Shown: positions 34,549-50,226 of the stretch, one piece after another
How the letters are laid out: each line of letters starts with the position of its first letter
Position numbering within the stretch: position 1 is the first letter of the stretch
From: Pseudodesulfovibrio sp. S3
Lineage (GTDB): Bacteria; Desulfobacterota; Desulfovibrionia; Desulfovibrionales; Desulfovibrionaceae
Reading direction: 5' to 3'
NCBI RefSeq assembly: GCF_004025585.1
Contig: NZ_QTZO01000001.1
Location: forward strand, 248,001-312,000
Length of the DNA: 64,000 bases
Made by a program: the position numbers and the translations under genes
Notes under the pieces: generated by a model
What the model saw: the letters and a program-made list of their open reading frames with translations, nothing else
Database searches by the model: none
Told to the model about the DNA's origin: nothing

Positions 34549-35096
34549 ATTCGTATCCCTTTGAATGTGGGGTCTATGAGGGGGTGGTTCCTGTCCCGCT
34601 CAGAGAGGTCGGAAGGGGGCAGCGGCCACTCGATGCTCAGGGCCGGGTCGTCGAAGCGGACCCCGCCCTCGGCGTCCGGGCTGTAGGGAGCGGTATGCAG
34701 ATAGAGCAACTCCGAGTCCGGCTCGAGGACCTGGAACCCGTGGGCAAACCCTTCGGGGATGAATAGGGCTTGCCGATTCTCTGAGGTCAGCTTCTGCCCG
34801 TGCCATTGCAGAAAGGTCGGCGACCCTTGGCGCAGATCTACGGCAATATCGAAGACGCTCCCCCGCAAACAGCGGACGATCTTGGTTTCGGCGTGGGGTG
34901 GGTGTTGGAAATGCATGCCCCGGATGCTTCCGGGGGCAACAGTTTGGGAGAGGTTGATCTGTGCGAGCGGCTTGGTCAAGCCGATGGTCTTAAATTCCTG
35001 TGAGCAGAAGACGCGGGCGAAGGAGCCGCGTTCATCCTCGATGGGTTGGGTGGTGACCAGATACAGGCCGTCCATGGGTAAAGGGGTGATGGTCAT
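34545..35096 (-). CDS. dTDP-4-dehydrorhamnose 3,5-epimerase-like protein (RfbC family)
   Basis: A 183-residue cupin-fold enzyme. It has the RfbC features RGSFARVFCSQEFK, INLSQTVAPGSIRGMHFQ (catalytic His in GMH), CLRGSVFDIAVDLR and FIPEGFAHGFQVLE. In this cluster the substrate is more likely a CDP-4-keto-6-deoxyhexose than the dTDP sugar, since rfbF and rfbG are next to it and no rmlA, rmlB or rmlD is seen. ATG 35096 overlaps the rfbG stop by 4 bases; longer frames into rfbG are not needed. Confidence 0.88.
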   Translation of the reverse strand: MTITPLPMDGLYLVTTQPIEDERGSFARVFCSQEFKTIGLTKPLAQINLSQTVAPGSIRGMHFQHPPHAETKIVRCLRGSVFDIAVDLRQGSPTFLQWHGQKLTSENRQALFIPEGFAHGFQVLEPDSELLYLHTAPYSPDAEGGVRFDDPALSIEWPLPPSDLSERDRNHPLIDPTFKGIRI

Positions 35097-36151
35097 CGTA
35101 TCCCTTCGTATTGGCGGATCTGGGCCCGCGTCAGGTCCATGAGGACTGTGGGGTCGGTGCTCCAGGCCGCATACCATTCAGAGGTCCATTTCAGCGCGGT
35201 GGTTACGTCGGTCCTGGGAAGCCAGTCAAAACGCTCGCGGACCTTGGCACAGTCCAGGTGCAGAACCTGGGCCTCGTGCGGGTGGTCGTCCGCGTCCGCC
35301 TGAATCCGAGCCGTCCCGGGCCACAGCCCGGCGAAGCGGTCGGCGATTTCGCCTACAGTCAGGGTGTCGGACCCTGACGGACCGAAATTCCATCCGCCCG
35401 TGGCCTTCCGGTCGCCGTTCAGGATCGCCCGGGCCAGGGTCAGGTATCCGGAAAGTGGCTCGAGGACGTGCTGCCAGGGACGGATTGCCTTGGGGGAGCG
35501 GATGGATACCGGTTCCCCGAGGGAGAAAGCCCGGACCATGTCCGGCAGGAGCCGGTCCTCGCCGAAGTCCCCACCGCCGATGACGTTGCCCGCCCGGACT
35601 GAGGCCAGGATGACGTCCTTGGCCTCGAAAAAGGATGCATTCCAGGAGTGGGCCGCCAGCTCGGCGCACCCCTTGCTGGCCGAGTATGGGTCGTTGCCAC
35701 CCATGGGATCGGTCTCCCGGAAGGCGTGTCCCTGCTCCCGGTTTTCGTAGCACTTGTCGCTGGTCACGTTGATCACCCCGCGCACGGTGGGGGTGGAGCG
35801 GACCGCCTCAAGTACGTTGACAGTGCCGAGAACGTTGGTGGTGAAGGTCTCCACCGGCTCGCGGTAGGAGCGGCGAACCAGCGGCTGGGCCGCCATGTGC
35901 ACAACCAGTTCTGGACGGGCGTCATGCATGGCCGCTTTCAGCTCTTTGAGGTCGCGGATGTCCCCCTTGATCCCCCGGAAATCTCGGTCCATGTCTAGAA
36001 GTTCGAACATGGAGGGCGTGGACGGCGGTTCCAAGGAGAAGCCTTTTACCTCTGCCCCGAGCAGATTCAGCCAGAGGGTCAGCCAGCTCCCCTTGAAACC
36101 GGTGTGGCCCGTCAGGAAGACGCGTTTGCCGTGGAAGGTGTTCCCAAACAT
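35093..36151 (-). CDS. rfbG: CDP-glucose 4,6-dehydratase
   Basis: A 352-residue extended short-chain dehydrogenase. The NAD site is TGHTGFKGSWL, a pattern specific to RfbG, followed by VHMAAQPLVRRSY, the catalytic YSASKG and SVRAGNVIGGGDFGEDRL. It converts CDP-glucose to CDP-4-keto-6-deoxyglucose, the branch point to many 6-deoxy and 3,6-dideoxy sugars. ATG 36151 starts 7 bases after the rfbF stop. No rfbH-type dehydrase is present, so the product is more likely a C-methylated 6-deoxyhexose than a dideoxy sugar. Confidence 0.94.
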   Translation of the reverse strand: MFGNTFHGKRVFLTGHTGFKGSWLTLWLNLLGAEVKGFSLEPPSTPSMFELLDMDRDFRGIKGDIRDLKELKAAMHDARPELVVHMAAQPLVRRSYREPVETFTTNVLGTVNVLEAVRSTPTVRGVINVTSDKCYENREQGHAFRETDPMGGNDPYSASKGCAELAAHSWNASFFEAKDVILASVRAGNVIGGGDFGEDRLLPDMVRAFSLGEPVSIRSPKAIRPWQHVLEPLSGYLTLARAILNGDRKATGGWNFGPSGSDTLTVGEIADRFAGLWPGTARIQADADDHPHEAQVLHLDCAKVRERFDWLPRTDVTTALKWTSEWYAAWSTDPTVLMDLTRAQIRQYEGIR

Positions 36152-36158
36152 CGTGTTT

Positions 36159-36938
36159 CTACCAGACCTTCCAGGCCGCCTCGCCCGTATTCCAGATCTG
36201 GTTGAGTGCCTCAGTGTCGCGCAGGGTGTCCATGCATGCCCAGAAGCCATTGTGTTGGAACACGTGGAGCTCTCCATCTATTGCGAGACGCTCCAGCGGG
36301 CCATACTCAAAGTCACAATCCTCGTCCGGGGTCAGGTAGTCGAAAATCTTGCGGTTCAGGACCATGTAGCCGCCATTGATCAGATTGTTCCCGGCCTCCT
36401 TAGGCTTTTCCCGGAAAGAGACAACGGTGGTGCCGTCGATCTTCATCTCGCCGAAGCGCTGCGCCGGGTTTACACCGGTGATAGTAGCGATCTTGCCGTG
36501 GGTATGGTGGAACTCGACCAGCCTGTTGATATCAACATCGGCCACGCCGTCGCCGTAGGTCAGCAGGAAGGTATCGCCTTCGATGTATTTCTCAATGCGT
36601 TTGATTCGGCCTCCCTTGAAGGTAGCCTGTCCGGTGTCGGCTAGGGTGATTCGCCACCCGGTCTCATCATGGCATTCGTGCAGGCATAAGGCATCGGGTT
36701 TGCCCAGTTCCAGGGTAATGTCGTTGTTCATCCATTCGTAGTTCACGAAAAAATCACGAATCATCTCGCCCTTATAGCCTAGCGGCAGGACAAAGTCGGT
36801 GTGCCCGTGGTGGGCGAATATCTTCATGATGTGCCAGAGGATCGGGCGGGATCCTATGTTGACCATGGGCTTGGGCCTAAATTCGGTTTCTTCGCGGAGA
36901 CGGGTACCCAGGCCTCCGCAGAGGATGACGGTTTCCAT
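36159..36938 (-). CDS. rfbF: Glucose-1-phosphate cytidylyltransferase
   Basis: A 259-residue nucleotidyltransferase starting METVILCGGLGTRLREETEF, the RfbF signature; RPKPMVNIGSRPILWHIMK and LTYGDGVADVDI also fit. It makes CDP-glucose from CTP and glucose-1-phosphate and so opens the CDP-sugar branch. It precedes rfbG in the direction of transcription. Confidence 0.95.
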   Translation of the reverse strand: METVILCGGLGTRLREETEFRPKPMVNIGSRPILWHIMKIFAHHGHTDFVLPLGYKGEMIRDFFVNYEWMNNDITLELGKPDALCLHECHDETGWRITLADTGQATFKGGRIKRIEKYIEGDTFLLTYGDGVADVDINRLVEFHHTHGKIATITGVNPAQRFGEMKIDGTTVVSFREKPKEAGNNLINGGYMVLNRKIFDYLTPDEDCDFEYGPLERLAIDGELHVFQHNGFWACMDTLRDTEALNQIWNTGEAAWKVW

Positions 36939-36968
36939 AAAATTCTCTTGTGGTTGTGGATGGTTGAG

Positions 36969-37838
36969 TTACAATTGTGCTTTTGGGGACTGTGACAGCA
37001 ATTCGTTGAGCCGGTCAGTGCTGCCCCAGAACCGAAACGGCTCCCATTCCGGATACGGGAAAACTCCTAAATTGAGTCGGATCGAGCTGCTCCGGCGACG
37101 TAGGTGTTCTTTCACTAACGTTCTGAGTTCCGTCTGTCGGCCCGAGCAGACGTTCACCGTGCTGGGGTGAGGGTTGTCGAGCAGAAGGACTGCGAGAATC
37201 CCGGCAGCGGTGTCCACTGGTAGATAATCTCTTATCTGTTTCCCGCCGGACATGTCAAAATCGCTCTTGTTTTCATCGATGGCCCTGTCCAGTTGGGCGA
37301 ACAGGGAATTGGGTGACTGACCCTCTCCGTGGAGATAGAAGAGCCTTGCCCAGCTCAGAGTGCAGCCGGTCCCCCGGACGCGATCCTCGAGGTGGAGTCT
37401 GAGCTGATTCTTGGCCTGGCCATATAGGGTGGTCGGGGTGATTATCATATCCTCGCGAAGCTCTCCCTCGATCATGCCGTATTCAAAGCAGGTTCCGGCC
37501 ACCACCAGCCGTTGGAGCCCTTCCCGCAGGAGGGCGTCGAGGAACCGCTTGCTTTGCGGCAGGGCGTGTTCCATGTGGCGGTCTGCCAGATAGTTGGGCA
37601 GCCCGGGCCATGCCAGGTGGAGACAGTGGGTGGGGCGCCCCAGGGTTTTATGGAGGTCTTTGGGGAGGTCGTCGAGATCCAGGACTACGCGGGAAACGCG
37701 CGGGTTATCCTTAAAAAAAAGCAGCCTATCAGTGGAACGCCCCACGACCGTGACTGTCTCGCCACGCCTGGTCAGGGCGCGCACTGCGTGCCTGCCGATG
37801 AAGCCTGTGGCGCCGGTGACAAGGATGCGTTTTTTCAT
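36969..37838 (-). CDS. NAD-dependent epimerase/dehydratase (extended SDR), probable sugar reductase
   Basis: A 289-residue Rossmann protein. The cofactor loop is TGATGFIGRHA and the catalytic pair is in YGQAKNQ (Y-x-x-x-K). The C-terminal part is variable, as in sugar-specific members. In a cluster that makes CDP-4-keto-6-deoxy sugars it is the best candidate for the final 4-keto reduction. ATG 37838 is set by CGGAGC just upstream; the longer frame runs into the upstream gene. Confidence 0.82.
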   Translation of the reverse strand: MKKRILVTGATGFIGRHAVRALTRRGETVTVVGRSTDRLLFFKDNPRVSRVVLDLDDLPKDLHKTLGRPTHCLHLAWPGLPNYLADRHMEHALPQSKRFLDALLREGLQRLVVAGTCFEYGMIEGELREDMIITPTTLYGQAKNQLRLHLEDRVRGTGCTLSWARLFYLHGEGQSPNSLFAQLDRAIDENKSDFDMSGGKQIRDYLPVDTAAGILAVLLLDNPHPSTVNVCSGRQTELRTLVKEHLRRRSSSIRLNLGVFPYPEWEPFRFWGSTDRLNELLSQSPKAQL

Positions 37839-37857
37839 GATGCTCCGGGGCGACGGG

Positions 37858-39045
37858 TCAGGCCACGACGATGGTGCCTGAGTACCCTGCGTTTTTGAGA
37901 TCATGGGAAATGGATGCCCCGCAGGGGCCGCGCCAGACGACCACGGCGGAGTCGGGAGAGGCACCTTCTATTGCCGAAGGTGGGCTGATCGGTTTGCCCT
38001 CGATGGTCTTGGTCTGCTTGATTGCGTCCCTGTCGATGAGGGCGACGATGTTGCAGTCCTTGAGCGGGGTCATGGCCATGACTCGCTGGAGGAAAAAGTT
38101 GATGCCCCAGATGTATACTTCGGCCCCGGATTCGGCCAGCTTCTGCAGGGTCCGGTTGGCCGGGGTGGAGTCCCCGGCGAACAGCTTGAGGTATTCATCG
38201 GGAGAGCCTGGCTCGAGCGTTTGGACCTTGTCTGGCACTGCAAGCTTGTTGCCCTTCTGCAGGACCGCGAAGCAGCCGGGGATGGACGGCTCTAGTTCCT
38301 CGTCCAGCACCTTGCGGCCGTAGTCGATCATGGTCAGTCCGGCCTCGGCAAACAGCCGCTTCAGGGTGTACGGGGTGAAGTGGTTGATGTGTTCGTAGAA
38401 GAGGTAGGTGATCGGGGCCCTACCCGGGAAGGCATCGTACCGGGTCAGATCCGGGACTTCGATGTAGGCCAGTCCTTCATCGGCGAGCAGGTCGGCTATG
38501 GACCGGGCCGCCTCGGGCAGGTCCATAATGTGCTCGAAGGTGTGCGTCGAGAGAATGCAGTCGAAGCTCCCTGGTTGGTGTACTGTGTCGGTTGCCGTGC
38601 CCAGGGTCACGTTCAGGTCGTGCTCCCGGTTGAGGTACTCCACACAATCCAGAGACGGGTCCACGCCGAACAGGTTGGCGTACCCCTGTCGCTTGAAGGA
38701 CAGGAGTAGGTCGCCTTTGCCGCAGCCGATGTCGCAAATACGGGCGTCGTCGCGCAGTCGAGGCCCCATGACCTCGAAGGGTGAGTTCTTGGCCCGCATG
38801 ACCGCCACGTCACCCTTGGCGGTGTAACCGGAGACGAAATAGTGCTGTTCGTAGAAAAGGGTGAAGTCCTCGAGGGTGTTGGGTGTGTCGTAGAAGACGA
38901 AGGAGCACTCGTCGCAGAGGATCACTTCGAACTCGCCGGTCAGCGGGCAGTCATCGAACACGGCGAAGCGCATGGCCCGCAGCACTGTGCCGTGGGTCGC
39001 GCCGCAGACGGGGCAGGGACGGAGTAAAGTTTTGGTATTTCGCAT
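37858..39045 (-). CDS. SAM-dependent methyltransferase with zinc-finger N-terminus and Rossmann-like C-terminus
   Basis: A 395-residue protein. The N-terminus has CPVCG and CDECSFVF, a zinc-ribbon pattern. The SAM site is ICDIGCGKGDLLLSF, and YEHINHFTPYTLKRLFAEAGL is typical of Methyltransf_23 proteins from polysaccharide loci. The C-terminal about 90 residues have VYIWGINFFLQ and LIDRD, a module also seen in four other proteins of this locus. The acceptor is unknown, probably a sugar or glycan end. Start and the preceding radical-SAM stop overlap by one base. Confidence 0.82.
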   Translation of the reverse strand: MRNTKTLLRPCPVCGATHGTVLRAMRFAVFDDCPLTGEFEVILCDECSFVFYDTPNTLEDFTLFYEQHYFVSGYTAKGDVAVMRAKNSPFEVMGPRLRDDARICDIGCGKGDLLLSFKRQGYANLFGVDPSLDCVEYLNREHDLNVTLGTATDTVHQPGSFDCILSTHTFEHIMDLPEAARSIADLLADEGLAYIEVPDLTRYDAFPGRAPITYLFYEHINHFTPYTLKRLFAEAGLTMIDYGRKVLDEELEPSIPGCFAVLQKGNKLAVPDKVQTLEPGSPDEYLKLFAGDSTPANRTLQKLAESGAEVYIWGINFFLQRVMAMTPLKDCNIVALIDRDAIKQTKTIEGKPISPPSAIEGASPDSAVVVWRGPCGASISHDLKNAGYSGTIVVA

Positions 39046-40067
39046 CAGACAAGTCCCGCGTGCTGGCTGACCTTTTCGTAGAGGGCGTCCCGAAATTCGT
39101 CGATGTTGTCGGCCATGCCGTAGGCGAGCTGCATGCAGTCCTTGCAGAATGGCATGTGCTGCCGTTCGCCTTTGAGGAAATCCAGTCGGTAGCGATTCAT
39201 GGCATCCGAGTTCCAGATGGCTTTCACGTCTTCCGTGTTGGCGTCGCCGACGATGAGGTCGTGCTTCCAGTCGAGGAAGCAGACGCTGGCCCGACCGTCC
39301 GCATTGATGGACATGGAGTAGAAGACGTAGGGGCAGGTGTCCACCGAGGCGATAGGCTGGCCGTAGATGCCTGTCTCCAGGCTCGCGTCGATCTTCTCGA
39401 GGACGTCGAACTCCGGCCAGCAGGGGGCCACATGCTCCACAAAGATTTTGTCGGCGATGGGCGAGAAATACTCGAAGAAGAGCTTTTCCGTGTCCGGGGT
39501 GAGAATCTCCTTGACCGTCTTGATCAGGATATTGCAGTCGCCCCGGTTTTCGTAGAGCGTTTTGATGTTCTCCCGGTACCGGGCAAAATCGACCTTGGTG
39601 TGGGTGAAGTCCTTGAACTGCTCGTCGCTCATGCCGTCCAGGGAGATATTGATCTGGTCGATCCCGGCCTCGGCCACGGGCAGGGCCCGCTCCGGAGTCA
39701 GCAGCGAGCCGTTGGTCGTGGTGTCCACGGAGAGAATCTTGTTGCTCTGCTTGGCGTAGCGCACCATGTCCGCCAGTCTCGGGTTGAGGAACGGCTCGCC
39801 GTCCTTGTACAACCGCAGCACCTTGAGCTGTCCGTCGAACTTCTCCAGATCATCGATGATCTTGGTGAACAGGTCGTAGTCGAGGAGGACGTTTTGGCGG
39901 CTGGACGTCTTCAGTAACTCCTTGTTGCCGGTGGGGCAGAAGTTGCAGCGGAAATTGCAGCGGCTGGAGGGGTCTAGAAACAGGACGAACGGAGTCTCAA
40001 GTGGAATAACATCCTGCAGTGGTGTCCGGTTTCTTTGGTCGATGCGTGTATCTAGGGTCGCGCTCAT
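39045..40067 (-). CDS. Radical SAM/SPASM-domain protein
   Basis: A 340-residue protein. The radical-SAM cluster motif is CNFRCNFCPTG, followed by YKDGEPFLNP and INISLDG. The C-terminal SPASM-like part has CPYVFYSMSINADGRASVC and a late CKDCMQ, which can bind an auxiliary iron-sulfur cluster. Members found in glycan loci are thought to modify sugars, for example by dehydration or epimerisation, but the reaction here cannot be read from sequence. It lies between two methyltransferase genes and is translationally coupled to the downstream one. Confidence 0.85.
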   Translation of the reverse strand: MSATLDTRIDQRNRTPLQDVIPLETPFVLFLDPSSRCNFRCNFCPTGNKELLKTSSRQNVLLDYDLFTKIIDDLEKFDGQLKVLRLYKDGEPFLNPRLADMVRYAKQSNKILSVDTTTNGSLLTPERALPVAEAGIDQINISLDGMSDEQFKDFTHTKVDFARYRENIKTLYENRGDCNILIKTVKEILTPDTEKLFFEYFSPIADKIFVEHVAPCWPEFDVLEKIDASLETGIYGQPIASVDTCPYVFYSMSINADGRASVCFLDWKHDLIVGDANTEDVKAIWNSDAMNRYRLDFLKGERQHMPFCKDCMQLAYGMADNIDEFRDALYEKVSQHAGLV

Positions 40068-40105
40068 GGGGTCCTTGGCGTGTTCGTTTAGGGAATTATG
40101 TCCGG

Positions 40106-40843
40106 CTACTTGATCTTTTTCAGGTATCCGTCGGAACAGGAGGTGATCAGCAGCTTGTCCTCGATCTCGCGGGCCACGGCAAATGAGTCGTCGGATTTGA
40201 GATATTCGTGGACGGCGGTCTTGGGGTTGTTGCCTTTACCCCACGGGCGGTCATTGCAGGTGGGGTTGTCCGGCAGATTCTCCACGCCGCTGTCGAAGAC
40301 CACGCAGTAGCTGCCCTTGGTTACCATGGGGGCGTAGTGTTTCAGCTCGGCCAGGACGTGGTCATGGGTGTGGTTGGAGTCCAGGGCCACGAGGACGCGC
40401 TCGGCCCTCTTGACGAATTCGTGGACCTTGGTCACGGTCCCGGTGTCGATGGAACTGCCTTCCAACAGAGTCACGCGCCGATACATGGGGTGCTGAATGA
40501 TCGCCCGGTAGTTGTGCGCACGGATGTCGATGTCGATGCCCAGGACGTGGCCGTCCAATCCCATCATTTCCATCATCGAGGCATAGAAAATGATCGATCC
40601 GCCTCGGGCCACTCCGGTCTCGATGACGAGGTCGGGCTTCACCTCCCAAAGTATCTCCTGCATGGCGACGATGTCTTGCGGGGCCTGGATGATGGGCAGC
40701 CCCATCCAGGTGAAGTTATGGGAGTAGTTGTACTTGAGGACCTCGGAGAGCCATTCCAGGGTCACTTCCCTGCATCGTTTCGACTCGCCGAGATTCTTGA
40801 TGTTTTCTTTAACGCTCTGGGCAAATTCTTTGGTATCATCCAT
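40106..40843 (-). CDS. Cephalosporin-hydroxylase (CmcI) family protein, probable O-methyltransferase
   Basis: A 245-residue protein. It has YNWMG-like context (YSHNFTWMGLPIIQAPQD), the SAM-type loop VIETGVARGGSIIFYA and DSNHTHDHVLAEL, all characteristic of the CmcI family. In spite of the name, family members in polysaccharide loci are generally methyltransferases. ATG 40843 is chosen because AAAGGAAC lies just upstream; a start at 40864 lacks one. The acceptor is presumably a glycan hydroxyl. Confidence 0.84.
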   Translation of the reverse strand: MDDTKEFAQSVKENIKNLGESKRCREVTLEWLSEVLKYNYSHNFTWMGLPIIQAPQDIVAMQEILWEVKPDLVIETGVARGGSIIFYASMMEMMGLDGHVLGIDIDIRAHNYRAIIQHPMYRRVTLLEGSSIDTGTVTKVHEFVKRAERVLVALDSNHTHDHVLAELKHYAPMVTKGSYCVVFDSGVENLPDNPTCNDRPWGKGNNPKTAVHEYLKSDDSFAVAREIEDKLLITSCSDGYLKKIK

Positions 40844-40867
40844 TGAGTTGTTCCTTTGGTGCATAAA

Positions 40868-41974
40868 CTAGTAGCAATAGAGGACATAGTCGCCCAGGAC
40901 CGGGGTATGCCAGCGGAAGGCGAAGCGGTAACTGGGTGCGATCTCCTGAACGTTTTCGGCCAGGGAGAAGAGATCAACGGGGTAATGGTAGGCACAGACG
41001 GCGAGTTTGGGTTGTTGCCGGGCGATAGTCTGTCGGGCGCCGGAGAGCAGTTGCGCCTCCATTCCCTCCACGTCCATTTTGATCATCGTCACCCGCCGGT
41101 CTCCGATGAAGTCGTCCAGCCTGTGGATCGGCACGGTGTCCGCGGATTGTGCCCTGACGCCCCCGGCCCCGTGGTTCGAGGTCGGCAGGCCGGACTTGTC
41201 GATCGCCATGTGGCCGTTCTTGTCGGCCAGCGCGCCTTGGACGGCGGTGATAGCGCCTTCGCCCAGAGCCCACTCTACGCGCAGTCTGCGGATGCGCTCT
41301 TTCATGGCAGCGAACTGTCGCGCGCCGGGTTCGAAAGCCAGGATGCTTTCGAAGGAGCCGCCGCACTTCCAGATAAATTTTTCAAGGGTATCGCCGACGT
41401 AGGCTCCGGCGTCCACGAAGGATTCGGAGTAGCCGCAGGCGAACTGCGGGACCGAGAAGTACATGTTGTTGTCTAGCACCGGGTAGCACTGCTCAAGAGA
41501 GTTGCTCAGCAGGGCGTGGATAACGGCGTTGTAAGAACGACGACTGATCCCGTCATCTTCGAACATGTCCCTGGCTTGGGCGATCCGATCGCGATTGGTG
41601 ACGATCACAAAGGCGTCCAGGGACATGATGTTGGCGTAGTGGGGGGCGCAGCGGGCGGCAATCGGTTGTACGTGGTGCCTGGCGGAAATGAGTAGCGATC
41701 GGCTTCGTCCGATTCCGTCATCGTGCCGGAGGGTAGGGATAGCCTTGTAGGTTGTTCCCTGTTTGTCGGGGGCGTTGTCGATAATGCAGTTGATGGCGGC
41801 TCCGACCCCGGAGAGGTGAGAGGCTCCCCATTGCCCGACCACGCCCTGTCCGTAAAGGGTCACTCCGTCGCCGAAATCGTCGACAATGGCGTGTGCCTTG
41901 GGCAGGAGTTCCTCGATGAGGTCATTGATGGTCGTGTCGGTAACTGCTTTCATGTCCATTGTTTTTATCGTCAT
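40868..41974 (-). CDS. FkbM-family methyltransferase with N-terminal Rossmann-like module
   Basis: A 368-residue protein. Residues about 38-90 hold a Rossmann-like module (TLYGQGVVGQWGA, then CIIDNAPDKQG). The FkbM methyltransferase follows from about residue 175: SFVDAGAYVGDTLEKF, ILAFEPGARQF and IKMDVEGMEAQLLSGA, the last being the FkbM hallmark. It probably O-methylates a sugar. ATG 41974 overlaps the upstream stop by 4 bases. Confidence 0.87.
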   Translation of the reverse strand: MTIKTMDMKAVTDTTINDLIEELLPKAHAIVDDFGDGVTLYGQGVVGQWGASHLSGVGAAINCIIDNAPDKQGTTYKAIPTLRHDDGIGRSRSLLISARHHVQPIAARCAPHYANIMSLDAFVIVTNRDRIAQARDMFEDDGISRRSYNAVIHALLSNSLEQCYPVLDNNMYFSVPQFACGYSESFVDAGAYVGDTLEKFIWKCGGSFESILAFEPGARQFAAMKERIRRLRVEWALGEGAITAVQGALADKNGHMAIDKSGLPTSNHGAGGVRAQSADTVPIHRLDDFIGDRRVTMIKMDVEGMEAQLLSGARQTIARQQPKLAVCAYHYPVDLFSLAENVQEIAPSYRFAFRWHTPVLGDYVLYCY

Positions 41975-44646
41975 TTCACTTGGCGCGTGACCTGGTTTTG
42001 GTTGCGCGTGAGTCGCTCTTCGGGGATCGCATAGAATACCGCCGAGTTGCCGCAATAGTCATGCAGATGGAAGAACAGCCTATACCTATTGAGTCCTATC
42101 AGGAAATCGGGGATGGCGTCGAGGCCGGCGGCGGAGTGATCGGCCAAGACCATGATCACGGGGCGGTTTCGCTGAATGAAGGATTTTGCTCCCCTGAGCA
42201 CGGCAAGTTCTTCTCCTTCCACATGAATCTTAAGAAAGCTTTGCGTAACATCAGGCATTGAATCCAGACAAGCTGTTTTTACGGATAGTTCACCTTTCTC
42301 GGAGAGCATGGAAGCGAAATCCATGCCCTGTCGAAATCGGCTTTCCCTTCGTTCGCAGGAGGATATCGCTATTTGCTCCAGGTGTATCCTCGGGTCGTCG
42401 TAGCGCTGGTTCAATTTCTTGAAGGTCTCTGGATCGGGTTCGAAGGCGAGGACGGCCCCGAAACGGTCGCTGGTGTACTCGATGAAGGCATCGATGGTCT
42501 GCCCCAGGTGTGCTCCGCAGTCGATCAGATTTTCCCCGCCCCGGGAAGCCGGGACGCAGGGGGCATTGAAATACTTTCGCCCCGAAAGGACCGGATGGGC
42601 ACGGTCGTTTACTTCGCGTCGGGCCACGCGCCACCAGAGGAAATGGCAGAAATGCGACAGGGAACCAGGGTCATGGGACAGCTGCTTACCTATGCGCTCA
42701 AGTAGGGGCCTATCCGGCGACTCGATGACCCAGCCGTTGGGCATGATTTCGGGAAAGGTGCTTTCGCTGAGGTCGTAGAAATGCCGAACATCCGTGCAGC
42801 CGAGACCTTTGAGAAAGTCGGCCAGGGGAGCGAATTCCAGGGTGGCGATGCAGACGACGAAGGTCATCGTCGTTTTGGCCTGCTTGGGGATATCGTCAGG
42901 CGTGACCACTGGAACGCCCCGAAGGCTGTCGCTGCCGTAGTCCCTGTCGACGATCAGGCGCGCTTGGATGCCCGCATGGGCCAGGCAGTCCAGGGCCATT
43001 TGTCCCATCTTCCCGGCGCCGTAGAGGACGATGCCTTCCGCCGACACGGGGCGCAGGGGCGAAGGCACGAGCAAGGGAGTTTCGAGGATCGCTTTCAGTT
43101 CGTTTTTGAAGCGGGCGTATGCCTGGGCTCGGGCTTGCAATTCGTCCAATAGCCTGACGGCCTCCGTGGGGTTCGGGGAACCCGGCATGGCTTCCCCGAG
43201 GAGGGGGTGACAAGCGTCAGCGGCTTCCATGTCGCCGAGAGCCTCTTGGCTTTGGATCAGATGCCACAGGATGCGCCAGTGGCCGAAACCGTGTTCCCGA
43301 GCCCGGGAAAAGAGGGTGGCAGCCCGGGCGTGATTCCCCTGTTTCTGGCGGATGAGACCGTGCCAGAATCCGAGTACCGGGTCTTCCGGGAAAAGGGTGG
43401 CGTAGTGGATGACGCTCCCCTTGGTCGGGGTGGTCATCTCCTCCGGGCTGTCGGCGATTGCCAGGTCGGTCTCAAGCAGTACGTCAAGTTCTTCCGAAAG
43501 GGTGTTGGTCGCGAATGGCTCGGCACTGTCTCCCAGGGATCGGAGGAATATCCGGTGGCCTGGGAGCGGAGGCCGGATCGCATCGTCAAACTCGTGGAGC
43601 CGTTTGGGCCGCTTAAGGAGTTCGGCATAGAGTTTGTGGAAACGGTCCACGGTCTTTTCCAGGGTGAAGTGGGTCTTTGTGTACCGCCTCGCGTTGTCAC
43701 CCAGTCGTCTGCGCTCTTCTGGATGGCTGTAAAGGAATTCGATGGCATCGGCGTAGGCCTGCGGGCTGTCCACCAGCAAGCCGGTCTCTCCGTCTTGGAT
43801 GATGGTCCTTTCACAGCCATTGGCAAAGGCTACAGGGGGCACGCCTGCGGCCATGGCCTCGAGCAGGGCCTGTTCTCCCGTGCCGTAGTGCCTGGCGTTC
43901 AGTGGGTACCCGAAGACGTCCAATTCCCGGAAGACCTCGGCGATGTCGTCCACATGTCCTTTGAACGAGAACCGACCCGCCAGTCCCAGGTCGGCCGCAG
44001 CGTTTTCGAGTTCCGGCCGTGCCGCTCCTTCTCCGCAGACCACGAAGCGGACGCCCGGGATATTGACGGCCGCGCTCATATGGAGGAATTCCGGGTGCAT
44101 CTTACAGAAATCGACCGTCCCGACGTAGCCGACATTGAACTCCGTGTGCGGCCTGGGGGTGATGCCCGCGACCCGCTTGGTGCTCCCCCCGGCGATGAAG
44201 AGGGTGCAGACCTTTTCCGGCTGTTGCGCCCGGATGAGCGGATGGTCTTCGGAATAAGGGGTCGAGAGGCAGAAGATGTCGGCCAGATCGAGGGCGTCAC
44301 GGGTGAAGACGGCGGGCGGATGGAAGCCGGAGACATGGGAGAAGAAGAGTGTCCTCGCGGGTGGAAGCGTAACCGAATACAGGAATTTGTTCAGCAGGGG
44401 GTGGTTCCACCACTCCACCTGGATGATGTCCGCCTGTTCCGCTTTCCGCAATATTCGGTCGTAGGGAACCTCGGAGTGCGCCGTGATTGCGCGGCGCGCG
44501 CACAAATCCCGGGAGTGGGCACTGAGCCGGTCCAGGCAGACGACCTCGTGGATGAAACTGCTGGCGCCGGAACTGCCGACGATATTGGTGACGACTTGCC
44601 CGACACCGCCTCCCAGGTGTGTGGTGATGTGGAGAATGGTGGGCAT
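41971..44646 (-). CDS. Glycosyltransferase family 4 fused to FkbM-family methyltransferase
   Basis: An 891-residue fusion. Residues 1-345 are a GT4 (GT-B) glycosyltransferase with THLGGGVGQVV at the N-terminus and EQALLEAMAAGVPPV (258-272) and DGETGLLVDS in the donor domain. Residues about 410-515 look like helical repeats. Residues 538-590 are a Rossmann-like module (LYGAGKMGQ, IVDRDYGSDSLRG). Residues 706-880 are FkbM (LIDCGAHLGQTIDAF, LAFEPDPE, LKIHVEGEELAVLRGA). It could add a sugar and then methylate it, a capping arrangement known to stop chain growth in some O-antigens. Here this is inference. Confidence 0.88.
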   Translation of the reverse strand: MPTILHITTHLGGGVGQVVTNIVGSSGASSFIHEVVCLDRLSAHSRDLCARRAITAHSEVPYDRILRKAEQADIIQVEWWNHPLLNKFLYSVTLPPARTLFFSHVSGFHPPAVFTRDALDLADIFCLSTPYSEDHPLIRAQQPEKVCTLFIAGGSTKRVAGITPRPHTEFNVGYVGTVDFCKMHPEFLHMSAAVNIPGVRFVVCGEGAARPELENAAADLGLAGRFSFKGHVDDIAEVFRELDVFGYPLNARHYGTGEQALLEAMAAGVPPVAFANGCERTIIQDGETGLLVDSPQAYADAIEFLYSHPEERRRLGDNARRYTKTHFTLEKTVDRFHKLYAELLKRPKRLHEFDDAIRPPLPGHRIFLRSLGDSAEPFATNTLSEELDVLLETDLAIADSPEEMTTPTKGSVIHYATLFPEDPVLGFWHGLIRQKQGNHARAATLFSRAREHGFGHWRILWHLIQSQEALGDMEAADACHPLLGEAMPGSPNPTEAVRLLDELQARAQAYARFKNELKAILETPLLVPSPLRPVSAEGIVLYGAGKMGQMALDCLAHAGIQARLIVDRDYGSDSLRGVPVVTPDDIPKQAKTTMTFVVCIATLEFAPLADFLKGLGCTDVRHFYDLSESTFPEIMPNGWVIESPDRPLLERIGKQLSHDPGSLSHFCHFLWWRVARREVNDRAHPVLSGRKYFNAPCVPASRGGENLIDCGAHLGQTIDAFIEYTSDRFGAVLAFEPDPETFKKLNQRYDDPRIHLEQIAISSCERRESRFRQGMDFASMLSEKGELSVKTACLDSMPDVTQSFLKIHVEGEELAVLRGAKSFIQRNRPVIMVLADHSAAGLDAIPDFLIGLNRYRLFFHLHDYCGNSAVFYAIPEERLTRNQNQVTRQVK

Positions 44647-44688
44647 GTTTGTATGGTACCTTTCGCTCGGGAGGACAATGGTTCGTGG

Positions 44689-45717
44689 CTATTGATGGCT
44701 GCAGCCGATCAACTTGCAGATTCTCTTGTAATCTTCGGCTGCCGTCGGATCTTCGGCGAGCACGTCCTGAATGCTGGTCTTTCTGGGCTTGGGTGGTTTG
44801 GGAATGGGAAGGCCGACGCGCCTGAAAAGGGCGTTTAACTCGAACCTGATCCGATCCATGAAGGTCTTGGGAGGGCGGTCGCGCATCCAGTACCATTTAT
44901 TCTTCTTGGGCAGAATGCTCAGCATCATTATGCGCATGGTGTTGTCTACGTAGAACGTGGCCTTTGTGGTGGAGATCCCTTTTTCTTCGACCAGGTAGTT
45001 CACGATGTCATTCTTCAGCGTTGCCAGTTCGGGATAGTATTTGTTTTTCCGGACCAGGTTCTTGGAGGTTGCCAGGACGGATTTGAAGTTCTTGGTGCTT
45101 TTCGGTTCATCGCAAATGACTTGATGGAAAGAGTTGACTGTAGCCACCTTGCCCTGAGCGATCAGGATCAGGGCGAAATATAATTCACAGAAGTTGTAGT
45201 CGACAACTCCCTCTGGGAATCGATCCAGGGCGAACTGGAGGCATTCAGTCCGTTGCAGGGAGTAAAATACAGGGTGATAATAGGTGAAAAATTGAAGTAA
45301 GCGTGTGGCCGGGCAGTCTGCATCCGCCTGAAAAAAATGGGCCTCGGGTCTTCTGAGGACAATTTTCCCATTGGAATTGAAGAAAACCTTTCCCTGAATG
45401 GCGGCATAGTCTGGATTGCTTTCCAGGAAAGCCAGACTTTTTTTCAAAAAGGACAGCGATGGGTAGATGTCATCGGCGGTAACCATGGTGTAGGGGGTTT
45501 GCGTACGCTTTGTGGCCTCGCGAAATCTGGCCAGCGGATGGACGCCCGGAGCATGATAGTACTCAATGTTCTTGAAATCGAATTGAGGAATGAATTTGGA
45601 TTCTGTCGCGTCCATGACAATAATTTTAACTTCGAATTCATCCAGAAAGGACAGGATATTATCGAGTAAGTGGTGCCTGTTTAACGTCAGGAGAATCAAG
45701 GTGATTTCGTTCTTCAT
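44689..45717 (-). CDS. Glycosyltransferase, GT2-like N-terminus
   Basis: A 342-residue protein starting MKNEITLILLTLNRHHLLDN, a GT-A pattern, with VTADDIYPS as the DxD-like metal site. The C-terminal half is basic and ends with a Pro/Lys-rich stretch. It probably transfers a sugar in the surface glycan. AAGGAC precedes ATG 45717. A diverged, broken paralog of its first 70 residues lies directly upstream at 45814-46062. Codon use looks somewhat more AT-rich than in neighbouring genes. Confidence 0.78.
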   Translation of the reverse strand: MKNEITLILLTLNRHHLLDNILSFLDEFEVKIIVMDATESKFIPQFDFKNIEYYHAPGVHPLARFREATKRTQTPYTMVTADDIYPSLSFLKKSLAFLESNPDYAAIQGKVFFNSNGKIVLRRPEAHFFQADADCPATRLLQFFTYYHPVFYSLQRTECLQFALDRFPEGVVDYNFCELYFALILIAQGKVATVNSFHQVICDEPKSTKNFKSVLATSKNLVRKNKYYPELATLKNDIVNYLVEEKGISTTKATFYVDNTMRIMMLSILPKKNKWYWMRDRPPKTFMDRIRFELNALFRRVGLPIPKPPKPRKTSIQDVLAEDPTAAEDYKRICKLIGCSHQ

Positions 45718-45813
45718 TTCGGTCCTTCGTAAATGTAATCCAGTGCTCAATGAGTTGAGCCTGCTTTTTTTCGTAAGTGATGCCACCCTAAACCTAAGCG
45801 GAGTGTTTAGCTC

Positions 45814-46062
45814 TTAGTTGGGACAGCTCCTTATCAAATTAGGGCCTGCTTCTTGAGAGCCTGTTGGATCTTTTTGGCCGGATGCATCCCCGGAGCATGA
45901 ATATAGAGAATGTTGGAAAAGGTCTTTTGTGTCTCGTACCGGGGTCTGCGTGGAGTCGATTGCAACCGTTTTTATGTTGAATTCGTCCAGAAACGGCAGG
46001 GTATCGTCGAGCAGGTGATGCCGGTTGTGCGTCGGGAGGATTATGGTGATGTCAGAGTGCAT
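45814..46062 (-). pseudogene. Truncated, frameshifted paralog of the adjacent glycosyltransferase
   Basis: The open frame (82 residues) starts MHSDITIILPTHNRHHLLDD, parallel to the N-terminus of the gene at 45717 (LDEFNIK against LDEFEVK). After about residue 48 homology continues only in another frame, which reads NILYIHAPGMHPAKK, matching NIEYYHAPGVHPLAR of the intact gene. The DxD region and everything after are missing. It is a decayed copy, diverged enough not to be a recent duplication. Confidence 0.75.
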
Positions 46063-46122
46063 ATAGGTCCGTGTCGATTGGTTGCGGGTGGTTGATTGCT
46101 TTTGGATCAGCGGTCGGGTTCC

Positions 46123-47301
46123 CTAGAGTTCCATCAGGTCGATTCTGTTCAGAGTGGTGTGCTCCTTGGAACGGGCGCTGAGGTCGTGTCCGACGACCGT
46201 GCCGTTGGTCTCCATCCTGTCCGCTCCGTCCAGGATGCGGCGCTCCTTCTCCTTTCGGTTGACCTGGCCGTCCATGGCGGCGGCCTCGGTGTTCGGCCCG
46301 GCCATGAAAATGTTCCCCATGACGTAGCGGAACCGGTACTGCAGGATGAATTCCACGGTTTCCTCCCATTCCTCGGAGGTTTCCGTGGGGAAGCCCGCGA
46401 TCACGTGGGTCTCCAATTCCACCCGGGAGCCGTCGAAGATCGAGTTGAACACCGTGTGCAACTCTTCTTTCGTGTAACCTCGCTTCATGGCCGCTAGCAC
46501 CCTGTCGTTGGCCGACTGGATAGGCACGAGCGCCTGAAAGATCGTGCCGTCCTTGACAAGCGCGCTCAACTCTTCGGTATAGTGCAGGCACCAGGCGGGG
46601 TGGATCTGTTTGAGGCTGATCCGGACGTCGGGGTGTATGGCTTTGAGTTCCCGGATGAGTTCGATGAGGGTTGTGCCGGTATCCACTCCATAGGCACCGA
46701 TGTCGTCACCGAAGAGGGCGATATTCTTGACCTCGGTCTTCTCGACCATTTCCCGGGCCTTGGCGACGAGCTTTTCTTTGGGGAAGCTCCGGTAGGGCGG
46801 GAAGGCCCGCACCTCGGTGCAGTAGGTACAGAGCCTGGTGCAGCCCTCGGACAGGAAAATTTTGATGTATTGGTCGTCGTTGCCGATTTTTAATTCGGGG
46901 TGGAGTTTCTTGTACTCGTCGATGGGCAGGGGGATGGGCGCCTCGACCACAGGGTACGGAGCGTCCATATGCTCAACCCCGAAGACCTTGGCGAACTCCT
47001 CACGGTCGTTGTTGTAGTGGATGATCTCGCCGTGAAAATTGTTCTCTACTTCCGAGGGGTCGATGGACGGCAGGCAACCTGCGGCCACCACCGAAAATCC
47101 CCTGGACTCGAAGTCCTTGAGAACCGAGATGCTGTTGTCGTGGAAGTCGCCTCTCACGGCGCAGGTCCAGACAAGAACCTTGTCCGCTTTCTCGGGGGTA
47201 TCGACCAACTCGTGGCCGTTCTGTAGAAGGGCTTCCCTGTACTGTGTGGTGTTGACTCTGCGCATGGGGCATATATTCAATGTCTTGATATAAACTTTCA
47301 T
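46123..47301 (-). CDS. Methylthiotransferase-like radical SAM protein (MiaB/RimO family layout)
   Basis: A 392-residue protein. The N-terminal UPF0004-type domain keeps three Cys for an auxiliary cluster: C11 (NICPM), C47 (WTCAV) and C76 (AAGCL). The radical-SAM motif is CTRLCTYC (C154, C158, C161), in EGCTRLCTYCTEVRAFPPYRS. A C-terminal TRAM domain, used by MiaB and RimO to hold their substrates, appears to be missing. Location inside a glycan locus argues against tRNA or ribosomal protein S12 as substrate. The real substrate is unknown. Confidence 0.82.
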   Translation of the reverse strand: MKVYIKTLNICPMRRVNTTQYREALLQNGHELVDTPEKADKVLVWTCAVRGDFHDNSISVLKDFESRGFSVVAAGCLPSIDPSEVENNFHGEIIHYNNDREEFAKVFGVEHMDAPYPVVEAPIPLPIDEYKKLHPELKIGNDDQYIKIFLSEGCTRLCTYCTEVRAFPPYRSFPKEKLVAKAREMVEKTEVKNIALFGDDIGAYGVDTGTTLIELIRELKAIHPDVRISLKQIHPAWCLHYTEELSALVKDGTIFQALVPIQSANDRVLAAMKRGYTKEELHTVFNSIFDGSRVELETHVIAGFPTETSEEWEETVEFILQYRFRYVMGNIFMAGPNTEAAAMDGQVNRKEKERRILDGADRMETNGTVVGHDLSARSKEHTTLNRIDLMEL

Positions 47302-47305
47302 AATG

Positions 47306-48418
47306 CTAGACCGTGTACATGATGGTGTCGTTACAGCTTGTGGAGTGGTGCCTGATGTAAATCCGGTAGTCCGGGGCGATGTCGTGTATATACTCGGGGA
47401 TTTCCAGGAGGTCGATGATGTTGTGGTAGAGACAGATGCCGAGCTTGGGGTGGTGTTTCTGGATAGTATCCTTCGCGCCTTTCAGGGCATTCAGCTCGGC
47501 CCCTTCCAAATCCATTTTGATGATTGAGACAGGGACGTCCTTCAATTCATCGTCGATTCTGACTACTTCAATGCCGTCATCATTTTTTTTGTCCATGACC
47601 GAGGCGTTTGATTCGCTGACCGCGGAATAGACGCCGTCCCAACTGAAGCCGATGGAACCGTTGCGGTTGTACACTCCCTTGGGGATGATCGTAACATTGT
47701 CTATGCCGTTGTCGGCGATGCACGCAGCAAGGGCTTCAAGGATGTTTTTGTCCGGTTCGAATGCGTAGATGTGTTTGTACCGGCCCTTGGACGTTTTATT
47801 GAAAAGCGTAATGGTGTCACCATCGAAGGCTCCGCAGTCGACATAGACTGAGTCCTCGTCCGCCGCCAGCAGCGATTTGAACAGGTACCAGTCGTCATCG
47901 ACCCGGGGAATGGACTCGAAGTCTTCTCGTTTTCCCGTGCTGTGTGCCTTCAGGACCTGGCGATAAACTTGACGCGACAGATCGTCAGCCAGAAAAGCTT
48001 CCACGGCCTTGAACCGTTCTATGTGTTGCGTGAAGTAGGGTTGGAATTGTTTGCCGGAGAAATAATGGGTGCAGTTGAAGTCCACGGGGCAGACCGAATT
48101 CGCACCGAATTGAGTCTCCAGTTGTTCCTTAATCTCCCAGAAGTAGGCGGGGGAAGTGACGACAAAGGTCTTGGTGTCAGGCAGCGAGGCTACCTGATCG
48201 AGAGACTGGACGGTATACCCTAAAATCTGTCTGCCGTGCTTCTTCTTGTCGTTGTCGCAGATGGACAGGGCCGTGAATCCTTTTTGCTCAAAGCGTTGCA
48301 GAATGCCCTTGAGCGCGAAGCCTGCGCCGAAGAACACGATGGGTGCCGCCTTGTCCCGGGATGCAAAAAAGGCGTCCGCAACGTTGGAGTTCATTGTCAG
48401 TTGTTCATATGAAAGCAT
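47306..48418 (-). CDS. FkbM-family methyltransferase with N-terminal Rossmann-like module
   Basis: A 370-residue protein. Residues 25-75 form the module VFFGAGFALKGILQ, ICDNDKKKHGRQILG. The FkbM domain starts near residue 190: VYVDCGAFDGDTITLF, YAFEPDKNILEAL and IKMDLEGAELNALKGA. The layout equals that of the protein at 40868-41974, so the two may act on successive residues or positions. AGGATAG precedes ATG 48418. The next gene follows after 4 bases. Confidence 0.87.
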   Translation of the reverse strand: MLSYEQLTMNSNVADAFFASRDKAAPIVFFGAGFALKGILQRFEQKGFTALSICDNDKKKHGRQILGYTVQSLDQVASLPDTKTFVVTSPAYFWEIKEQLETQFGANSVCPVDFNCTHYFSGKQFQPYFTQHIERFKAVEAFLADDLSRQVYRQVLKAHSTGKREDFESIPRVDDDWYLFKSLLAADEDSVYVDCGAFDGDTITLFNKTSKGRYKHIYAFEPDKNILEALAACIADNGIDNVTIIPKGVYNRNGSIGFSWDGVYSAVSESNASVMDKKNDDGIEVVRIDDELKDVPVSIIKMDLEGAELNALKGAKDTIQKHHPKLGICLYHNIIDLLEIPEYIHDIAPDYRIYIRHHSTSCNDTIMYTV

Positions 48419-48450
48419 GGACTATCCTATCGATTGAGCTTGACGGGGGC

Positions 48451-50226
48451 CTACTCTGCGTTTTTTTGATTGTCTTCGAATTGCATTTTGTAAAGATTGG
48501 CATAAAGGGGGCAGCTCTCAATGAGTTCAGCGTGTGTCCCGGAGGTGACTATGCGGCCGTTCTCCATGACCAAGATGACGTCGGCGTTGAGGATAGTGGA
48601 GAGCCGATGCGCGATGACAATGGAGGTGCGCCCCTCCATGAGGTTGTCCAAAGCCATCTGGACTACACGTTCAGACTCGGTGTCTAGGGCGCTGGTGGCC
48701 TCGTCCAGGATGAGCAGGGAGGGATCTTTCATGATCGCGCGAGCTATGGTCAGTCGCTGCTTCTGCCCTCCCGATATCTTGACCCCGCCTTCACCGACGA
48801 CCGTGTCGTAGCCTTCAGGCATGGCTGAGACGAATTCATGGGCGTAGGCACCCTTGGCCGCACGCACCACCGCATCCATATCGTAGTCATCGTGGGCGTA
48901 GGCGATGTTCTCCGAAACGGAGACGTTGAACAGAAAGGTGTCCTGTGAGACCAAACCAATCCCTTGGCGTAAGCTCTTCAGTGTATATTGCTGGATGGGA
49001 CGTCCGTTGAGCAGGATACGTCCTTTGTCCAAATCGTAGAAGCGCGGCAAAAGATTTACCAGGGTAGTCTTTCCTGCGCCACTCGGTCCGACTATCGCTA
49101 CCCGTTGCCCAGCCTTGATGTTCAGGTTGATGTTGCTCAGTGACGGGTGGTTTGTACGCGGATAGGCAAAGTCTACGTTTTCGTAGGTGAGTTCCCTCAA
49201 CTGGCCGTCGAATTCGAAGTCACCGTCAGTTTCAGCCTGGATGTCCGGGGAGTCGAGCATGTCGAATACTCGCTCCGTACCCGCCAAGCCGGTCTGTATC
49301 GATTGGTTGGCTGAGTTCATCTTTTTGATCGGATCGTACAGTTGGATCAGGCACACCAGGAACGCCGTCAGGTCTCCCGGCGTCATCACGCCTTCAACCA
49401 CTCTCATTCCGCCTACCCAGAGGACCGTGGCGCCGGCTGCGGCGGCAATGATGTCCATAATCCGGGATGACCCTTCGTTGTAAAGGAGACTACGGATGAG
49501 TAATCTGGTGAGGTTCTCGTTTTCGTGGGCGAAGGCAGATTCCGTGCGCTGTTCGTTTGCGAATCCCTTGATGACTTTAATTCCCGAGAAGTTTTCCTCC
49601 AATAAAACATTAAGTCCTGAGAGGTTCGCTTGTGTTCTTCTGCCATATTTTCGAATCTTTTGGCCGAAGTAGATAAATGGATAAATTGCTATGGGCATGA
49701 CCAGTAGGCTCCAGAAAGCTAGGTATGCGTCGAGGAAAATGGTCGTGCCGATCAATCCGGCAAGAGTAAATATCTGGCGTACGAACATGATCACGTTTGG
49801 CAAACAAGCGCGGACCGAGGTCACGTCACCCCCGACGCGGTTCATGAGCATGCCTATTTCGCTATCGGCAAAATACGCCATGGGCAGGCGGATGATCTTG
49901 GAGAACATGTCCCTGCGGAGGTCTCTTAAAACCTCCAGGCCCGTGGCGTTCATGATGACAACCTGGCCTATCTGTGTGATGCATTTGGAAACGATAAGAA
50001 TGACGAAAGCGAGGATGCAGAGTTTGAGCGTTGCGGCGTCCTTATCGATGAGGACTTGGTCTGTGACGTATTTAGTTAACCAAGCCAGTGCAGGGCCTAT
50101 GGGGGCATAAAGTAGCATGGCCAATATGGCAAATAGAATGCGCGATTTATACGGACCGAAATAGCCTATGCTCCGTTTTAGCAAATACCAGCTGGAAAAT
50201 TTAAACAATTTAACGTTGTTAGCCAA
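48451..50226 (-). CDS. MsbA-like ABC exporter (permease-ATPase fusion)
   Basis: A 591-residue half-transporter. Residues 20-315 hold about six membrane helices of type IV ABC exporters; residues 340-585 are the ATPase with Walker A VGPSGAGKTT, signature ISGGQKQRLTIARAI, Walker B LLILDEATSALD and the H-loop His in IVIAHRLST. This layout fits flipping of lipid-linked glycan or lipid A-like molecules. As first gene of the locus it probably exports its product. The start is a TTG at 50226 with GGAGA upstream. Confidence 0.92.
   Translation of the reverse strand: MANNVKLFKFSSWYLLKRSIGYFGPYKSRILFAILAMLLYAPIGPALAWLTKYVTDQVLIDKDAATLKLCILAFVILIVSKCITQIGQVVIMNATGLEVLRDLRRDMFSKIIRLPMAYFADSEIGMLMNRVGGDVTSVRACLPNVIMFVRQIFTLAGLIGTTIFLDAYLAFWSLLVMPIAIYPFIYFGQKIRKYGRRTQANLSGLNVLLEENFSGIKVIKGFANEQRTESAFAHENENLTRLLIRSLLYNEGSSRIMDIIAAAAGATVLWVGGMRVVEGVMTPGDLTAFLVCLIQLYDPIKKMNSANQSIQTGLAGTERVFDMLDSPDIQAETDGDFEFDGQLRELTYENVDFAYPRTNHPSLSNINLNIKAGQRVAIVGPSGAGKTTLVNLLPRFYDLDKGRILLNGRPIQQYTLKSLRQGIGLVSQDTFLFNVSVSENIAYAHDDYDMDAVVRAAKGAYAHEFVSAMPEGYDTVVGEGGVKISGGQKQRLTIARAIMKDPSLLILDEATSALDTESERVVQMALDNLMEGRTSIVIAHRLSTILNADVILVMENGRIVTSGTHAELIESCPLYANLYKMQFEDNQKNAE

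Follow-up and report, generated by a model that had tools for sequence, protein, structure and literature searches.

Radical SAM methylthiotransferases (MTTases) are known to act on substrates of two kinds only, A37 of tRNA and ribosomal protein S12 (PMC10702137). In these enzymes, one SAM molecule methylates a sulfur of the auxiliary cluster and a second SAM gives the radical (PMC10702137; PMC5352715). The published spacing of the N-terminal cysteines is Cys-X35-36-Cys-X32-33-Cys, and according to the same review every MTTase has a TRAM domain (PMC5352715). An earlier note on the DNA studied here took TRAM to be the means by which the family recognizes its substrates. TRAM does contact tRNA, but so do the other two domains of the known enzymes, so that it is not the sole recognition element (PMC10702137); loss of TRAM alone is therefore weak evidence.

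The sole methylthio-sugar of a bacterial surface glycan that we found in a literature search is MTX of mycobacterial lipoarabinomannan (LAM), which derives from 5′-methylthioadenosine and is attached by a GT-C transferase, with no MTTase involved (PMC11127046). Our searches, mostly of open papers, for TRAM-less or glycan-linked MTTases and for methylthio sugars in O-antigens returned nothing on point, and none of the open papers searched describes a methylthio-sugar in the bacteria considered here.

Results

The gene of interest is located at 46123-47301 on the minus strand of the window, by which we mean the whole 64,000-nucleotide stretch that was analyzed. Its reading frame is intact, with 392 codons from ATG to TAG and no internal stop. 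The earlier note gave these bounds exactly, leaving out the strand, and also placed the cysteines correctly at residues 11, 47, and 76 and in a CxxxCxxC motif at 154-161 (C154-x3-C158-x2-C161). Pfam assigned residues 2-89 of the protein (P0001) to UPF0004 (PF00919; 43.9 bits, cut-off 27) and residues 150-319 to Radical_SAM (PF04055; 63 bits, cut-off 29.5). Codons for the predicted auxiliary [4Fe-4S] ligands are at 47269-47271 (Cys11), 47161-47163 (Cys47), and 47074-47076 (Cys76), and the radical SAM [4Fe-4S] motif, recognized by Pfam and alignment, is encoded at 46819-46842, all on the minus strand.

A scan of genome contigs with P0001 alone found no relative, and one with a two-row alignment found four, namely two orthologues and two ordinary RimO-side proteins. 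The orthologue group has eight members from Desulfobacterota and Magnetococcales, with 33-39% identity to P0001. Profile searches located orthologues in Deltaproteobacteria bacterium SM23_61 (locus L065), in a Magnetococcales genome (L080), in three genomes of the same class as the latter (L098, L099, and L100), and, as two copies, in G544, which belongs to another genus of the family that includes the genome of the window (L087). No relative was found in the viral contigs or the PHROGs searched, and plasmids gave distant MiaB/MtaB-like matches only (the best at 25-28% identity). A search of 35 genomes of the same genus as the window yielded no reported orthologue; one of them, G030, carries a TRAM-less gene that is only distantly related and lies in a sugar locus (L007/L076). 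The P0001-type gene is present in 2 of the 288 genomes of the family, and this sparse distribution fits the turnover of glycan loci, not translation.

All six cysteines are kept in 8/8 orthologues and in the other TRAM-less rows of the alignment, and they never vary among full-length rows; the arrangement is therefore not due to chance. The Cys11-Cys47 spacing of X35 falls within the published range. The Cys47-Cys76 spacing of X28 (28-29 in aligned orthologues) falls outside it; in the same alignment, this second spacing is X30 in MtaB and X32-40 in RimO. Downstream of CxxxCxxC, the [IV]Px2RGx2[KR]S of MiaB/MtaB/RimO-type proteins, whose RG stretch has R in 51/52 and G in 52/52 comparison rows, is replaced in the orthologues by [ED]x3FPx3S. 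In P0001, the replacement for RGxx[KR]S is the family signature FPPYRSFP (residues 167-174; 46780-46803, minus strand), of which F167, P168, and S172 are invariant across the eight orthologues. There are further changes close to the other cysteines, N14 to R near Cys11 and N45 to W near Cys47.

P0001 lacks the near-invariant [IV]P..RG and has substitutions close to Cys11 and Cys47, so that its chemistry could differ from that of the known enzymes. We regard as a serious rival, albeit an unlikely one, a radical SAM enzyme that acts on a sugar and keeps the MTTase fold and both Cys triads, but in which the auxiliary cluster would bind, oxidize, or reduce the sugar (dehydration, epimerization, oxidation, or deoxygenation) and would donate no methylthio group. 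The consistency of the replacements near both cluster motifs in all eight orthologues speaks for such an enzyme, whereas the three UPF0004 cysteines that characterize MTTases are all present and do not vary.

The absence of a recognizable TRAM domain, as the earlier note had it, was borne out. Pfam gave no TRAM match to P0001, and neither did a TRAM HMM that we built from TRAM-bearing relatives (no match at E<=10). The same HMM missed 8/8 orthologues (best E 9.9), while scoring TRAM-bearing relatives at 22 bits and up. Consistent with this, P0001 has 90 residues from the start of the GFP motif to its C-terminus, compared to 132-149 in the TRAM-bearing relatives. We considered the possibility that P0001 is a truncated TRAM-bearing gene, but rejected it because there is no TRAM remnant downstream (our HMM picked up noise alone, E 1.2 or worse, in the six frames of 45401-47400) and because there are seven TRAM-less orthologues. 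Three other proteins (L044, L052, and L081) that seemed TRAM-less by length or motif count were rejected as such, since TRAM matches are present in them.

The genome encodes three other UPF0004 proteins, which NCBIfam identifies as MiaB (L001; 445 bits to TIGR01574), MtaB (L002; 349.9 bits to TIGR01579, cut-off 357), and RimO (L003; 420 bits to TIGR01125). As these are separately encoded, P0001 is a fourth paralogue; the earlier note had treated the lack of any other miaB or rimO gene as fatal to its proposal, and both genes are present. P0001 itself scores below the cut-off of every model in question: 199.9 bits against TIGR00089 for the MiaB/RimO group (cut-off 251; orthologues 154-192), 149.7 against TIGR01579 for MtaB (cut-off 357), 119 and 130 against the MiaB and RimO models (cut-offs about 355), and 195 against TIGR01578 for e-MtaB (cut-off 314.7), which is the best of the four known clade models. 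We dropped an argument from charge, that P0001 is less basic than the tRNA enzymes, as isoelectric points overlap those of RimO and some MiaB proteins.

We then built a tree of 50 rows, 20 TRAM-less and 30 of MiaB/MtaB/RimO type, with the archaeal/eukaryotic e-MtaB clade left out. The TRAM-less rows separated from the MiaB/MtaB/RimO-type rows with support of 100/100, and still with 100/99 on the 359 columns that remained after sparsely filled ones, including the TRAM region, were removed. The eight orthologues formed their own clade (100/99-100). Forcing the P0001 group together with RimO, MiaB, or MtaB was rejected by AU tests (p 9.4e-5, 2.5e-6, and 8.9e-5, respectively), so the phylogenetic check proposed in the earlier note excludes placement with any of these clades at p <= 1e-4. 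Eleven rows, all from glycan-type loci, cluster at support 85-88/78-85, a grouping that is suggestive only.

Two other TRAM-less groups were encountered. One is a more distant sister group in glycan loci (L007/L101; support 100/100; L076 7901-11191 and L101 9128-12636). Its gene in L076 adjoins C-methyltransferase-like and SPASM radical SAM genes, and that in L101 is near a CmcI-type methyltransferase gene, as in the window. The second is an MTTase-like group outside glycan loci (L066 9430-10635, L067 8736-10031, L068 7602-8819, L069 6316-7614, and L070 2206-3492). In most of these loci, the next gene encodes an acidic, uncharacterized protein that is small, at about 147-150 aa (beginning EEQLEAFWEQCDEWAQSR...), and is a possible partner or substrate of that group.

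These data bear on the idea that P0001 is a divergent MTTase for tRNA or a ribosomal protein, which lost TRAM and sits in a glycan locus by chance. In its favor, recognition by known MTTases is not by TRAM only (PMC10702137), and the top curated clade model, e-MtaB, represents a clade outside our tree. Against it are the genome's own MiaB, MtaB, and RimO, the AU tests, the absence of the gene from most relatives, and its recurrence in the sugar loci of genomes that are far apart (below); we consider it improbable. A role outside translation is, conversely, very likely.

To compare structures, we generated an AlphaFold2 model of P0001 from a 22-row alignment (mean pLDDT 89.8) and used Foldseek and VIA-align. 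The best match was MtaB (9a6d; Z 31.2, rmsd 3.0, 339 aligned residues, 24% identity), and MiaB (7mjw; Z 30.0, rmsd 2.8, 334 aligned) and RimO (4jc0; Z 29.4, rmsd 3.5, 334 aligned) also matched. The three align over model residues 1-369, and the targets are unmatched past about residue 362-392, that is, the match ends where their TRAM domain begins. The fold is also near that of MgmA (9ccb; Z 24.8) and the aminoglycoside 1,2-diol dehydratase AprD4 (6fd2; Z 21.0, 16% identity), as might be expected of a sugar-acting enzyme with non-MTTase chemistry, but MtaB, MiaB, and RimO are clearly nearer (Z 29-31). The AprD4-type diol dehydratase model, NF033070, is not among the 25 NCBIfam families listed for P0001. 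Based on its reading frame, Pfam domains, alignment, and structure, P0001 is almost certainly a TRAM-less MTTase homologue.

The gene resides in a glycan locus, a minus-strand array spanning 33325-50226. Directly upstream is an FkbM-family methyltransferase gene (47306-48418; Methyltransf_21 62 bits, TIGR01444 81 bits), whose stop is separated from the start of P0001 by 4 bases, preceded by that for an MsbA-like ABC exporter (48451-50226; TIGR02203 534 bits, below the cut-off of 602). On the other side are genes for a TIGR04440 (TIGR00180 family) glycosyltransferase (44689-45786; 128.7 bits, cut-off 70), a GT4 glycosyltransferase fused to an FkbM methyltransferase domain (41971-44646), another FkbM-family methyltransferase (40868-42055), a rhamnosyl O-methyltransferase/CmcI family protein (40106-40864; PF04989 284.6 bits), a radical SAM/SPASM protein (39045-40067; PF04055 and PF13186), and a SAM-dependent methyltransferase (37858-39045; Methyltransf_23). 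These are followed by genes for an NAD-dependent sugar epimerase/dehydratase (SDR; 36969-37964; PF01370 86 bits), an RfbF-type glucose-1-phosphate cytidylyltransferase (36159-36938; TIGR02623 333.6 bits, cut-off 300), an RfbG-type CDP-glucose 4,6-dehydratase (35093-36277; TIGR02622 463.7 bits, cut-off 278), a dTDP-4-dehydrorhamnose 3,5-epimerase (RmlC) family protein (34545-35177; TIGR01221 164.7 bits, cut-off 156), and a sugar C-methyltransferase (33325-34548; Methyltransf_13/14, PF08484 212.9 bits). From what is known of such pathways, the CDP-sugar genes suggest synthesis of a C-methylated, branched CDP-6-deoxyhexose. That the neighbors make deoxy and branched sugars is a further point in favor of non-MTTase chemistry on a sugar.

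Between the P0001 gene and the intact TIGR04440 glycosyltransferase gene is a decayed N-terminal copy of the latter (45814-46062, minus strand; MHSDITIILPTHNRHHLLDDTLPFLDEF...), which ends after about 82 codons. Some 3 kb from the glycan locus, on the plus strand, is a gene for a fused ATP sulfurylase/APS kinase (28473-30167; NF004040 641.5 bits, cut-off 669), which possibly supplies PAPS for sulfated glycans.

All orthologues with a readable neighborhood are likewise found amid genes for unusual sugars or glycans, although contigs end close to the gene in several loci and some neighborhoods are one-sided. GDP-mannose dehydratase is encoded in L080, L086, and L098, GHMP kinases in L080 and L087, and a DegT aminotransferase in L098. 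A split transketolase, HMM-checked in L098 and assigned by sequence likeness elsewhere, lies beside a Methyltransf_24 protein in L080, L086, L098, and partly L065; L100 has another TPP enzyme together with NeuB. B12 radical SAM proteins occur in L065, L086, L098, L099, and L100, and TylF-type methyltransferases adjoin or are near the orthologue in L065, L087 (twice), and L099. Thus, the partners vary from locus to locus, and the recurrent theme is the synthesis of unusual sugars. Each of the two nearby copies in L087 (659-1834 and 3526-4719) is followed by a gene for a TylF-type methyltransferase, which suggests two related modifications.

Taken with the home locus, these loci indicate a sugar or glycan intermediate as the substrate, and we think it probable that the substrate of P0001 belongs to such a pathway. 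Instead of a sugar, P0001 could modify the lipid carrier, or else a peptide or small metabolite that the same locus makes, as the nearby B12 radical SAM, SPASM radical SAM, and TPP enzymes are also known from natural-product pathways. This seems rather remote, however, given that nucleotide-sugar enzymes and glycosyltransferases dominate the neighboring genes and that an unsystematic look beside the gene revealed no ORF resembling a precursor peptide.

The class I methyltransferases of TylF/Methyltransf_24 or FkbM type that most loci encode next to the gene or not far from it are what would be expected if P0001 inserted sulfur without S-methylation, its auxiliary cluster or a polysulfide giving a bare thiol and hence a thio-sugar that a neighboring enzyme possibly methylates or links. 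We doubt this strongly, since class I methyltransferases in glycan loci are commonly O-methyltransferases. Moreover, known MTTases themselves methylate the sulfur (PMC10702137).

Discussion

The best explanation of these observations, to which we assign a probability of roughly 0.45, is that P0001 is a member of the MTTase superfamily that lacks TRAM and was recruited to the biosynthesis of unusual sugars or surface glycans, where it uses the two-cluster methylthiotransferase mechanism. The conserved parts of the protein predict the same two-cluster core as in the known enzymes, while the remodeled cluster surroundings and the missing TRAM predict another substrate. The earlier note's suggestion of a substrate other than tRNA or S12 is well supported in this respect, by the genome's own MiaB, MtaB, and RimO, the AU tests, the lack of TRAM, and the sugar and glycan loci. 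A caveat to the recruitment of an MTTase to sugar biosynthesis is that the product of a gene in a glycan locus may have a target of another kind.

From the examples of MiaB and RimO, we expect Cys154, Cys158, and Cys161 to ligate the radical SAM [4Fe-4S] cluster, and Cys11, Cys47, and Cys76 an auxiliary [4Fe-4S] cluster whose open iron site would carry sulfide or polysulfide. A first SAM would methylate the sulfur on the auxiliary cluster, and cleavage of a second would produce a 5′-deoxyadenosyl radical. This radical is predicted to abstract a C-H hydrogen from a sugar nucleotide, a lipid-linked sugar, or another glycan precursor, leaving a carbon radical that would then gain the methylthio group. 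Provided that the substrate is from a sugar or glycan pathway, we slightly favor methylthio transfer as the reaction. The retained six cysteines and the fold make a methylthio- or sulfur-bearing sugar a plausible product. Only tentatively would we go further and propose a TRAM-less fifth kind of MTTase, performing radical methylthiolation at a C-H of a nucleotide-sugar or surface glycan and yielding a methylthio-sugar by a route unlike that to mycobacterial MTX.

The interpretation given in the earlier note is thus reasonable and has gained support, with the chemistry still a prediction. P0001 represents a conserved clade of MTTase-like proteins that lack TRAM and are associated with sugar loci. 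With such a clade, the reach of radical methylthio or sulfur chemistry would widen to include carbohydrates or small molecules, and it offers a simpler enzyme in which to study the role of TRAM. It also means that automated "MiaB/RimO-like" labels, which present such genes as modifiers of tRNA or the ribosome, are probably wrong.

Among described systems, MtaB (9a6d), the bacterial t6A tRNA methylthiotransferase, shares with P0001 the UPF0004 and radical SAM fold and both Cys triads. P0001 differs from it in having no TRAM, in the change of [IV]P..RG to [ED]...FP, in forming a separate clade, and in scoring below the TIGR01579 cut-off. MiaB (7mjv/7mjw) and RimO (4jc0) are similar to P0001 in fold (Z 29-30), in CxxxCxxC, and in the three N-terminal cysteines, whereas P0001 has no TRAM and is set in a sugar locus, in a genome that already has its own MiaB and RimO. 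Unlike the archaeal/eukaryotic e-MtaB, P0001 again has no TRAM, and it falls below the TIGR01578 cut-off. AprD4 (6fd2), a radical SAM 1,2-diol dehydratase acting on paromamine, has a related fold and a substrate that contains sugar, but it is not an MTTase, is only 16% identical, and catalyzes a different reaction. Finally, the MTX capping of mycobacterial LAM shows that the surface glycan of a bacterium can contain a methylthio-sugar.
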